This document shows positions 18,526 to 28,856 of a stretch of 39,853 nt of DNA, in pieces. Source of the stretch: a virus; the IMG/VR virus record IMGVR_UViG_3300010885_049073, positions 1 through 39,853 of that record; one strand, written 5' to 3'. The notes beneath the pieces are model-generated. The model had not been told where the DNA came from, did not search any database, and saw only the letters and a list, made by a program, of their open reading frames with translations. Each line of letters starts with the position of its first letter. Within the stretch, counting starts at the first letter, position 1. The position numbers and the translations under genes are program-made.

Positions 18526-19095
18526 GTGACTGTGGAAACTGTGACTGATTGCAGGGTGTATGTGTCGAGCTGGTGTCTATACAACTCGGGCTCGTTGGCT
18601 GGTGAGTGGGTCGAGGTGACGGGCGACGAGGACGAGCTACGCGAGGAAGTGGCGCGCGTGCTGCTTAAGTACGGCGGGCCAACTGCTGAAGAACCGTTCT
18701 GCGGCGACCTGGAGGGGTTTCCGCGCTACATGGTGGGCGACCTGCTCGACGTGGAAACGTTTTGCGGGTACGTGCGCGAGCTGGAAGAGTATTTGCAGCA
18801 CGGTGAGCGGGGAGAGTTTGACGCGTTTATCGGCAACAACTCGTTGACGGGCGACGAGCTGGACGGCGCCGGCGACGCGTGTTGCGAGGCGTTTATTGGT
18901 TCGTTTCGGGACTCCGGCGAGCTGGTTGAGCATCTGATTGACGAAGGGGTGTTCGAGCCTCCAGTCAAACCCGAAGGACATCGGGGGTTGTGGCTTGGGG
19001 ACTACATCGACGCTGATCGCGTGGGGTGGGATTTGGAGTGCGGCGGCGACGTGTGGAACGACGGCGCGTTGTGGTTCTGGTCGACCGTTCAGTAG
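18526..19095 (+). CDS. ardA: ArdA-family antirestriction protein
   Basis: A 189-residue acidic protein. The N-terminus RVYVSSWCLYNSGSLAGEWVEV matches the ArdA signature (IYV..L..YN.G.L.G.W). It is followed by EEPFCGDLEGFP (ArdA: EW.I.DYEGFP), CEAFIGSFRDSGELVEHLID (Y.G.Y.S..DYA.E) and a final DYIDADRVGWDLECGGDVW..GALWFWS. ArdA proteins mimic bent B-DNA and inhibit type I restriction-modification enzymes, so early expression protects the entering genome. Length is near the family's usual ~165-190. The start is GTG 18526 after TAGGGGG. Confidence 0.85.
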   Translation: MTVETVTDCRVYVSSWCLYNSGSLAGEWVEVTGDEDELREEVARVLLKYGGPTAEEPFCGDLEGFPRYMVGDLLDVETFCGYVRELEEYLQHGERGEFDAFIGNNSLTGDELDGAGDACCEAFIGSFRDSGELVEHLIDEGVFEPPVKPEGHRGLWLGDYIDADRVGWDLECGGDVWNDGALWFWSTVQ

Positions 19096-19099
19096 GTGT

Positions 19100-19147
19100 T
19101 GCGCGCGGCTTGGTGGCCGTGGTTCCGGTTCGATTCCGGGGCGCGCA
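19100..19147 (+). ncRNA. 48-nt tRNA-like element lacking an anticodon arm
   Basis: TGCGCGC (19100-19106) pairs fully with GCGCGCA (19141-19147) as a 7-bp acceptor stem. A T-arm TCCGG-TTCGATT-CCGGG (19124-19140) has the canonical seven-base T-loop. Between acceptor and T-arm lies only GGC-TTGGTG-GCC (19107-19118), a short D-arm-like hairpin, plus GTGGT. No anticodon arm and no encoded CCA. It could be a real RNA, an mRNA leader structure, or a captured tRNA 3' end (attachment-site remnant). Confidence 0.5.
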
Positions 19148-19187
19148 TTGCTCACAATACCGTGGGCTATTGAAGGGAGAACCAAAG

Positions 19188-19940
19188 ATGATTGCAGTGT
19201 TACCGAAGGGGAGTAAACCAACAAAGGGCGCGTCTAGTGACGGCACGCGCCCGATACTGAACCGCGGCGAGCTGGTCGAGCTGGGCGCTGGTGAGTGGGT
19301 GCTTGTTGTCACCGATAGCTATAAGCTGGTGCGCATTCCGCTCGACGTTAAAAAGTGGGGCGGGACGCCGGAGCTGGTCGCTGGGCCAGTGTCAGCGGAC
19401 GCGCTGAAGGCGATTGAGAAGAGCGGCGCGTTTACTGCGGGCGCTGAGTTGGTGGCGCCGTGGCAGCGGCATAAGAACGGCGGTTTTTTGCCAGCGGATG
19501 GGGCGCCAGCGTTTGAGCGGGCCGGCGGCGACTGCGAGGGGCAGTTTCCTAACGTCGAGCAGTTGATGCCGGACGGCGAGATTCTCTACCGGTTTGGGTT
19601 TAATGCCGCGCTGTTGTTGGAGCTGGTGCAGTCTGTCGGGCCGGTAGGCAAGTCGGGGAGGGGTGCGACGGTGGTTTTTGAGTACCGTGCGCGCAACTTT
19701 GACGCGCAAGTGAATGTTCACGCGACGACTGTGAGCGTTGGCGAGCGTCGGGACGTTGGGCTCATGATGCCGATACGCGTTCATGAACCAGCGGTGGCGG
19801 ACTCGGTGTTGCAGGATGCGATCGCGGCGGCGTATCGTGAGCATGATGCGGTGGCGGATGAGGCGCTGGCGCCGGTCGACGTTGATACGGCTGCGTCGGT
19901 TGACGTGAACGCTGTGTTGGACTCGGCGGTGACAGCATGA
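19188..19940 (+). CDS. DNA sliding-clamp-like protein (DnaN/beta-clamp fold)
   Basis: A 250-residue protein starting at ATG 19188 after AAGGGAG. Three signatures recall the bacterial beta clamp: VTDSYKL (41-47; clamp ATDGYRL), FPNVEQLMP (120-128; clamp YPDYRRLIP) and the end of the clamp core LMMPIR (192-197; clamp C-terminal LMPMR). It is shorter than the ~370-residue host clamp, about two domains, and has an extra Ala/Asp-rich C-terminal tail (~50 residues). A clamp-like protein would tether or divert host polymerase or other clamp clients. No phage polymerase is encoded. Fold call is from motifs by eye. Confidence 0.65.
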   Translation: MIAVLPKGSKPTKGASSDGTRPILNRGELVELGAGEWVLVVTDSYKLVRIPLDVKKWGGTPELVAGPVSADALKAIEKSGAFTAGAELVAPWQRHKNGGFLPADGAPAFERAGGDCEGQFPNVEQLMPDGEILYRFGFNAALLLELVQSVGPVGKSGRGATVVFEYRARNFDAQVNVHATTVSVGERRDVGLMMPIRVHEPAVADSVLQDAIAAAYREHDAVADEALAPVDVDTAASVDVNAVLDSAVTA

Positions 19941-27574: not shown

Positions 27575-27777
27575 TGGGCGACGTGATTCAGTTTCCATCG
27601 GCGGCGCCGATGGGCGCTAGATACTTAACGAAGCGTGAGGTTGCGGAGCATCTGCGGGTGAGTGTTCGCAGCGTTGAGAGGTATCACGCTGACGGCTTGC
27701 CGCACTACCGTTTGAGGGGCATCAATCTGTACCGGGTTGACCTGGTGGATGCTTGGGTTCACAACCAGCAGGTTTGA
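27574..27777 (+). CDS. Excisionase-like MerR-type HTH protein
   Basis: A 67-residue protein. YLTKREVAEHLRVSVRSVERYHADGLPHYRLRGINLYRVDLVDAWV is an HTH_17 winged helix, as in recombination directionality factors. ATG 27574 overlaps the previous stop by one base (TAATG). It immediately precedes the integrase, supporting an excisionase role. Confidence 0.75.
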   Translation: MGDVIQFPSAAPMGARYLTKREVAEHLRVSVRSVERYHADGLPHYRLRGINLYRVDLVDAWVHNQQV

Positions 27778-27802
27778 CAGGAGTGACACATTCGGGTAGT
27801 GT
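27774..27802 (+). promoter_or_regulatory. Integrase promoter, probably leaderless
   Basis: TTGACA (27774-27779), 17-bp spacer, TAGTGT (27797-27802), then seven bases to ATG 27810. The consensus -35 and spacing give a start at the initiation codon. A weak inverted GACAC/GTGTC pair lies in the spacer and -10 region. The promoter overlaps the end of the excisionase-like gene, so the integrase can be expressed without it. Confidence 0.75.
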
Positions 27803-27809
27803 CGCCCGC

Positions 27810-28856
27810 ATGACTGTATTCAAACATAAGCAAACAGGTAGGTGGGTCGCGCAGGTTTACGATCCAGCAATCGGCAAGCGTCGCCAGGTCGGGACGTTCA
27901 TGTCGAAGGGCGAAGCGCGACGCGCGGAGCAGGCGGCTATGTCGCGTCCAACGGGCAACATGACATGCGACGAATGGCGCACGGAATGGCTCAAGACAGA
28001 ATCGTGGAAGGAGTCAACGCGGATTCACAACACGGAGCGAACGCAACTGTTCTCTAGCGTTCACGGACGCCGGCAGCTTCGGGCGTTCAATCGCAAGCTT
28101 GCTCGCGCGTGGATCACCGAGCATCCCGCCACACACGGGCCGCTGTCTGCAATGTTTGGCGCCGCGCTGTACGAGGACGATGAGGCGGGGCGACCGCTGA
28201 TTGAGTTCAACCCATTCAGCAAGCTGGTTAAGCGCACGACGGCGAAGCGTGACCTGCGCAGCGAATGGCTGACGGCAGCAAACATTGACGAGTTGCAGGA
28301 GGCCGCGTTGCAGGTTCACGGGCCAATCACCGGCGCGCTACTTGCCGGCATGATTTTGTTCGCAGCCGAAACCGGGGTGAGGCCCGGCGAAATGTTTGCG
28401 CTGACGCGTGGCAAGCTCGACGCGAACGACGGGCGACTGCTGATTGACTGCGCTGCCGACAGCAAGACGCGCACGATCACAACACCGAAGAACGGGCTGG
28501 CCCGTGAGATAGTGCTGTCGGAGAGGGCCGCAGCCGCAGCCGCGTCAGCGCCGCGCTTCGGGTCAAGTGACCTGGTGTTCACCACACCCTCGGGGGCCGC
28601 GTTCTGGCAGCCAACGCTCAGTTACTACTGGCGTCCCGTTGCCGGCGCCGCGGATCGGCGTGACATGCAGTTTTACGAGCTGCGGCACTACTGCGCAACG
28701 CAGCTTCTTGAGGCCGGCGTCGACGAGAGTGACGTTGGCGTGCAGCTCGGCCACTCCAACGGGCAGCTTGTCCGCGAGGTGTACGGCCATCCATCAAAGC
28801 GTGCCGCACTCAACCGGGTGCAGGACAAACTAAACGAGGGGAGAGAAGCAGCATGA
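27810..28856 (+). CDS. int: Tyrosine site-specific recombinase (integrase)
   Basis: A 348-residue protein. N-terminal arm-binding part (FKHKQTGRWVAQVYDPAIGKRRQVGTF), core-binding helical domain, then the catalytic domain with R191 (TGVRPGEM), K227 (TTPKNGL), Y289-x-x-R292-H (YELRHYCATQLL), H315 (LGHS) and nucleophile Y325 (VYGHPS). The first His of the HxxR box is Tyr, as in many actinophage integrases. It mediates attP x attB recombination. ATG 27810 fits promoter spacing. Confidence 0.93.
   Translation: MTVFKHKQTGRWVAQVYDPAIGKRRQVGTFMSKGEARRAEQAAMSRPTGNMTCDEWRTEWLKTESWKESTRIHNTERTQLFSSVHGRRQLRAFNRKLARAWITEHPATHGPLSAMFGAALYEDDEAGRPLIEFNPFSKLVKRTTAKRDLRSEWLTAANIDELQEAALQVHGPITGALLAGMILFAAETGVRPGEMFALTRGKLDANDGRLLIDCAADSKTRTITTPKNGLAREIVLSERAAAAAASAPRFGSSDLVFTTPSGAAFWQPTLSYYWRPVAGAADRRDMQFYELRHYCATQLLEAGVDESDVGVQLGHSNGQLVREVYGHPSKRAALNRVQDKLNEGREAA

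Follow-up and report, generated by a model that had tools for sequence, protein, structure and literature searches.

Mini tRNA-like elements without an anticodon arm at viral gene junctions, and their proposed role in mRNA processing

The tRNA-like element and its gene junction

The window (the whole 39,853-nt stretch of viral DNA analysed here, IMG/VR record IMGVR_UViG_3300010885_049073) carries a gene for an ArdA-like antirestriction protein followed on the same strand by a gene for a clamp-like protein, and the junction between them holds a 48-nt tRNA-like element, a second hairpin and a Shine-Dalgarno sequence (Table 1). The element begins 4 nt past the ArdA-like stop codon and ends 40 nt ahead of the ATG at 19188, the position that characterizes the family described below. 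From 5' to 3' it consists of one acceptor strand, the D-like hairpin, the five-base linker GTGGT, the T-arm and the other acceptor strand. The MFE fold has the same architecture of acceptor, D-like hairpin and T-arm; the folding energy of the element is only modest (z = -1.9) and that of the wider region around it is unremarkable (z = -0.8). The acceptor and T-stems stack to 7+5 bp, which is the 12-bp acceptor/T-stem/T-loop helix of RNase P substrates. The GG within the TGGT loop of the D-like hairpin resembles G18G19 of tRNA, and hairpins closing TGGT are also present in elements of other phages. The descriptor scan found this element to be the only one of its kind in the window.

Table 1. 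Coordinates of features at the junction of the ArdA-like and clamp-like genes
Feature	Coordinates	Strand	Evidence
Upstream gene, ArdA-like antirestriction protein, stop TAG 19093-19095	18526..19095	+	Pfam ArdA PF07275, E 4.7e-17
Entire mini tRNA-like element, 48 nt	19100..19147	+	Descriptor scan, covariance model R2, MFE fold
Acceptor 5' strand TGCGCGC	19100..19106	+	Sequence, MFE fold, R2
D-like hairpin GGCT-TGGT-GGCC, 4 bp including one G-U	19107..19118	+	Sequence, R2
T-arm TCCGG-TTCGATT-CCGGG, 5 bp including one G-U, canonical T-loop	19124..19140	+	Sequence, MFE fold, R2
Acceptor 3' strand GCGCGCA, followed by TTGCTC, no CCA	19141..19147	+	Sequence, MFE fold
Second hairpin GCTCAC-AATACC-GTGGGC, 6 bp including one G-U, 2 nt past the element	19150..19167	+	Downstream-hairpin scan
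Shine-Dalgarno AAGGGAG	19173..19179	+	Sequence
Downstream gene, DNA polymerase processivity-factor (clamp)-like, ATG 19188	19188..19940	+	phrog_947, E 4e-7

The first-pass annotation of this stretch had described a 48-nt tRNA-like element without an anticodon arm, and its coordinates proved exact in both the sequence and the descriptor scan. The acceptor stem that it called perfect pairs throughout its 7 bp, the T-arm with its TTCGATT loop and the short D-like hairpin are present, the Pfam and phrog_947 matches bear out the ArdA-like and clamp-like neighbours, and the good Shine-Dalgarno sequence that it placed ahead of the second gene lies before the ATG. No promoter- or terminator-like sites were found around the element, and a tyrosine integrase is encoded at 27753-28856, 8.6 kb away. 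Relatives of the locus were sought in IMG/VR through the ArdA-like, clamp-like and terminase proteins and in GenBank phages through the ArdA-like and clamp-like proteins, and none was found by either route; the terminase has only matches of about 28%, the best of them in Arthrobacter phages.

A family of mini elements in unrelated viruses

A BLAST search with 81 nt returned weak matches at gene junctions in unrelated phages, and these had the same architecture on reading. The descriptor scan searched for a T-arm with a TTCRANN loop, an acceptor stem directly beneath it and the 5' acceptor strand a short insert upstream. Hundreds of look-alikes were found in the same kind of gene gap in many unrelated viruses, and pattern scans of IMG/VR yielded many further elements. 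The family is defined by an 11-13-bp coaxial acceptor/T helix, a T-loop of the form TTCRANN, a 9-20-nt D-like insert holding GG and the lack of an anticodon arm. The window element has this structure. Covariance model R2, built from an N-padded alignment of 17 elements of the 7+5-bp format from other phages with the window excluded, gives it 48.8 bits (E = 2.7e-12), and the next-best match within the window stands at E = 1.6, which sets the element apart from chance.

Similar elements of 38-50 nt are carried by phages of Streptomyces, Mycobacterium, Gordonia, Microbacterium, Corynebacterium and Synechococcus and by many metagenomic phages. Cyanophage S-TIP37, Corynebacterium phage PSonyx, Microbacterium phage Lupine and the haloarchaeal virus HRTV-27 are among the carriers. 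Genome stretches of Amycolatopsis, Kribbella, Nocardia and Actinocatenispora also carry mini elements, and these stretches are probably prophages. Streptomyces phage Joe has seven elements of a single 40-nt format, each between successive early genes, while mycobacteriophage Send513 has 12 in one operon, mostly 8-15 nt past a stop codon and 39-47 nt ahead of a start codon. The number of copies per contig reaches about 13, and in loci with three or more elements one strand holds 331 of 332. Acceptor stems differ freely between elements inside one genome. The Joe-type model, R1, did not recover the window element at E below 1, presumably because of its 4-bp D-like hairpin and 17-nt insert. Neither R1 nor R2 had a match at E 0.001 in TM4, T4, Giles, lambda, T7 or phiC31; the result for T4 means that ordinary tRNA-bearing phages such as this one are not picked up by the models.

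The position of the elements relative to genes is constrained. In a set of 356 elements, which includes related phages and is not fully independent, 57% start 5-15 nt past the stop of an open reading frame (5% of random positions) and 70% have a Shine-Dalgarno sequence and start codon 30-59 nt downstream (9% of random positions). Of 232 non-redundant elements, 38% have a downstream hairpin with a stem of at least 6 bp, compared with 7% of shuffled sequences and 11% of a coding control. Longer downstream hairpins usually begin at +4 to +6, and a second hairpin starting at +3 to +6, which is a common but not universal trait of the family, is found in the window at 19150-19167. As a rule there is no U tract past the elements. 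The 3' flank of Joe-type elements is R-C (A or G as first base in 99%, C at +2 in 100%) and has no CCA; in the 12-13-bp types the +2 base is C in 47% and T in 44%, and the window element lacks the trait of the Joe-type subgroup, its flank being TTG.

Several loci depart from the usual arrangement. Three actinobacterial or prophage loci (L243 6883-7269, L013 6616-7002 and L030 10013-11076, all on the minus strand) hold arrays of four mini elements that are spaced by about 115 nt and uninterrupted by genes. Their spacers consist of GGC triplets at 5-nt intervals, (GGCNN)n; these runs cover much the same stretches as the spacers, and their periodicity recalls that of TRAP-type RNA binding sites. 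In phage PSonyx an element (L254 5996-6035) lies 2 nt past gp92 and 43 nt ahead of a gene for an RtcB-like RNA ligase. The Gemmatimonadota MAG CP070815 (L241 269-2324), binned as a bacterial chromosome, carries mini elements, two or three in number and all on the same strand, which could reflect a prophage or a wider occurrence. Larger tRNA-like sequences were also encountered. Mycobacterium phage SWU2 has one upstream of gp76 (L006 780-850), near its own mini element, with a 7-bp acceptor (CGGAACG/CGTTCCG), a T-arm and a single long hairpin where the anticodon arm would be. Phage phiC31 has, besides its annotated tRNA-Thr, an unannotated full-length tRNA-like sequence between genes 13 and 14 (L011 31424-31509) with acceptor GCTCCGG/CCGGAGC, a D-arm and a T-arm, followed by ACTC.

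Covariation in stems and elbow

The descriptor itself demands pairing, and pairing was therefore tested on sets picked by sequence patterns that leave each stem at least partly free. Among 62 unique elements found with the Joe-type pattern ACYGGCAGACA-N6-TTCGAGT, 56 form all six T-stem pairs and at least four of five acceptor pairs, whereas swapping 3' arms between elements gave a mean of 4.5 and a maximum of 10. The pattern TGGT-N7..14-GGTTCGATTCC led to a T-stem of at least 4 bp with an acceptor of at least 6 bp in 42 of 131 places (control mean 1.0, maximum 3).

Two further contacts in Joe-type elements entered no search or selection. Insert positions 2 and 8, the D-like pair, are Watson-Crick in 152 of 152 elements (CG 98, GC 40, AT 12, TA 2), and insert position 9 with the last T-loop base (T-loop7) is Watson-Crick in 150 of 152 (AT 116, GC 21, CG 9, TA 4), the other two being G-U. 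In a thinned set the proportions are 96.6% and 94.9%, respectively. The pair of insert position 9 and the last T-loop base is a predicted tertiary contact between the D-region and the T-loop. At 25 orthologous junctions (clusters), recognised by matching flanks, double-sided compensatory changes affect individual pairs in up to 18 clusters; they are found in 10 clusters for the D pair and in 15 for the D/T-loop pair, and neither of these pairs is broken in any cluster. Alignment of related phages for compensatory changes had been suggested at the outset, with a lack of covariation in homologues held to count against the element. Such changes are abundant in related elements, orthologous junctions included, and clearly contradict the adverse outcome, although the search for homologues of the window's own junction yielded none. 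Comparison of these sequences demonstrates that the structure of the mini elements is under selection, and the elements almost certainly form a real structured RNA family.

Comparison with known RNAs

The window element is not a canonical tRNA, as it has no anticodon arm and is recognised neither by ARAGORN nor by the Rfam tRNA models, and it matches no Rfam family at gathering scores. It also does not have the form of an intrinsic terminator (a GC-rich hairpin followed by a U tract). The U-less early terminators of phiC31 were considered as possibly the same thing and set aside, since that phage has no mini element.

Small cloverleaf-like RNAs can be excised from within longer transcripts by RNase P and RNase Z, as happens with mascRNA and menRNA. 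These tRNA-like 3' ends of MALAT1 and MEN-beta (RF01684) are eukaryotic and retain a small anticodon-like arm, unlike the mini elements. RF01684 is the best full-length Rfam match on a Joe-type locus (L084 12947-12992, 26.2 bits, E 0.26), and membership is not supported, this score being under the gathering score of 42.5 and the window element giving no match. In mitochondrial transcripts, tRNA-shaped RNAs between genes mark the sites cut by RNase P and RNase Z; this punctuation uses tRNA genes, whereas the mini elements are phage-borne and have no anticodon arm. In the early operon of T7, structured intercistronic RNase III sites are where a host RNase cuts the early mRNA of the phage. The T7 sites differ from mini elements in structure and in enzyme, and T7 has no mini element.

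Repeated intergenic motifs are known from actinophages, namely SAS/ESAS in cluster K and 17-18-bp repeats in clusters O, EG and EC (PMC3203893, PMC4351075, PMC7302621). Like mini elements, many of them occupy short gaps between genes or precede start codons, but they are conserved primary sequences. Identity with SAS/ESAS was rejected, as these are sequence motifs and cluster K phage TM4 has no mini element. SpF41 (RF02435) of Streptococcus pneumoniae, which occurs in few strains (PMC12323649), has an acceptor, one inner hairpin and a T-arm followed by a second hairpin, as the mini elements do. It differs in being a stand-alone sRNA of about 103 nt whose 3' end is trimmed by Cbf1, and in having a long single-stranded stretch beside the acceptor where mini elements have the D-like hairpin. 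The window element is not a member of RF02435 (17.2 bits against a gathering score of 52). No account of such elements was found in the open papers searched or in Rfam, and their novelty is provisional; searches of papers for tRNA-like elements at phage gene junctions returned nothing on point. The family is broad and apparently undescribed.

Proposed role and alternatives

The first-pass annotation had offered four readings of the element: a decoy, a processing site that separates mRNAs, a tRNA-like regulator and a remnant of an attachment site. The processing site fits best, given the position between stop codon and Shine-Dalgarno sequence, the junctions on the transcribed strand, the elbow with its coaxial helix and the trailing hairpin. 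The sequence evidence speaks most for punctuation by RNase P and RNase Z, and we lean slightly towards the view that mini elements act as portable mimics of tRNA and bring in host RNase P, possibly joined by RNase Z, for the cutting of polycistronic phage mRNA. Once transcribed, the elbow and acceptor of the mimic would be recognised by host RNase P, which would cut at the 5' end of the element. A nuclease that processes tRNA 3' ends, RNase Z or another one, would probably cut at the 3' end of the element, and the two cuts would split the polycistronic early mRNA. The upstream mRNA would then terminate just past its stop codon, and the downstream mRNA would keep a short leader beginning at the hairpin, which could shield it against decay from the 5' end. 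In the window, the ArdA message would be uncoupled from the clamp message.

Hairpins that consist of an acceptor, T-stem and T-loop are cleaved by RNase P, which relies on the T-loop and a ruler of 12 bp and forms base pairs with R73C74C75; other targets of the enzyme are the C4 antisense RNA of P1/P7 and a polycistronic mRNA (PMC11143913). The pneumococcal sRNA F41 pulled down RNase Z, and it bound other nucleases too, while several unrelated sRNAs also pulled down RNase Z (PMC7196914). A link between mini elements and RNase Z is suggested by analogy with F41, the Rfam fold being similar. Other observations speak against this role. The helix of Joe-type elements is 11 bp long, one short of the 12 bp in tRNAs, and the TTG flank of the window element stands in place of R-C. 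The arrays of elements without genes between them argue against pure punctuation, and T4, T7, lambda, TM4, Giles, phiC31 and many other phages do without elements.

A structure-only insulator that involves no tRNA enzyme, the compact fold halting exonucleases or RNA polymerase (a U-less terminator) or serving as a spacer that separates the translation of neighbouring genes, is an unlikely but serious alternative. It would account for very stable GC-rich stems directly past stop codons, and U-less terminators were reported from the early region of phiC31 by Ingham 1995, in the account given in PMC4411717. However, the T-loop, the D-like GG loop and the two covarying elbow contacts would be superfluous in a terminator or roadblock, phiC31 itself has no mini element, and both the absence of U tracts past the elements and that of promoter- or terminator-like sites near the window element speak against it. 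Slightly less probable still is a role in trans, in which a freed mini-tRNA would titrate or signal to a tRNA-binding host protein (RNase P, RNase Z, a CCA-adding or T-loop-modifying enzyme, or a tRNA-targeting defence). The high copy number of up to 12-13 per phage and the gene-free arrays in L243, L013 and L030 would suit a decoy or small RNA, and F41, with its similar fold, is a stable sRNA (PMC3395615, PMC7196914). Most copies nevertheless keep fixed distances to stop and start codons that a trans role does not need, their freely varying acceptor stems within one genome leave no shared identity for an aminoacyl-tRNA synthetase, and there is no anticodon as bait for anticodon nucleases. A decayed tRNA gene or attachment-site remnant from integration at a tRNA gene is very improbable: the T-arm and acceptor do resemble the 3' half of a tRNA and the window does encode a tyrosine integrase, but that gene is distant, the D-like hairpin is intact, and a decaying gene would not keep the perfect, diverse, covarying stems of a multi-copy family or show compensatory change at orthologous junctions, which leaves this part of the first-pass annotation unsupported.

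Implications for phage gene expression

Beyond the mRNA-cutting reading of individual elements, we give about even weight to the broader proposal that they are an undescribed class of structured RNA with which tailed viruses, bacterial and at least one archaeal, delegate mRNA cutting to the universal tRNA-processing enzymes of their hosts, in effect tRNA punctuation without tRNAs. If the proposed processing role is true, phages across several host phyla would share a simple RNA code for operon splitting, one missed by annotation because no tRNA finder or Rfam family covers the elements. Many conserved intergenic gaps in actinophages would then have a concrete reason, structural and RNase P work would gain about the smallest tRNA mimic in nature whose elbow covaries, and the old question of how long phage early messages are divided would become testable in ordinary laboratory strains.
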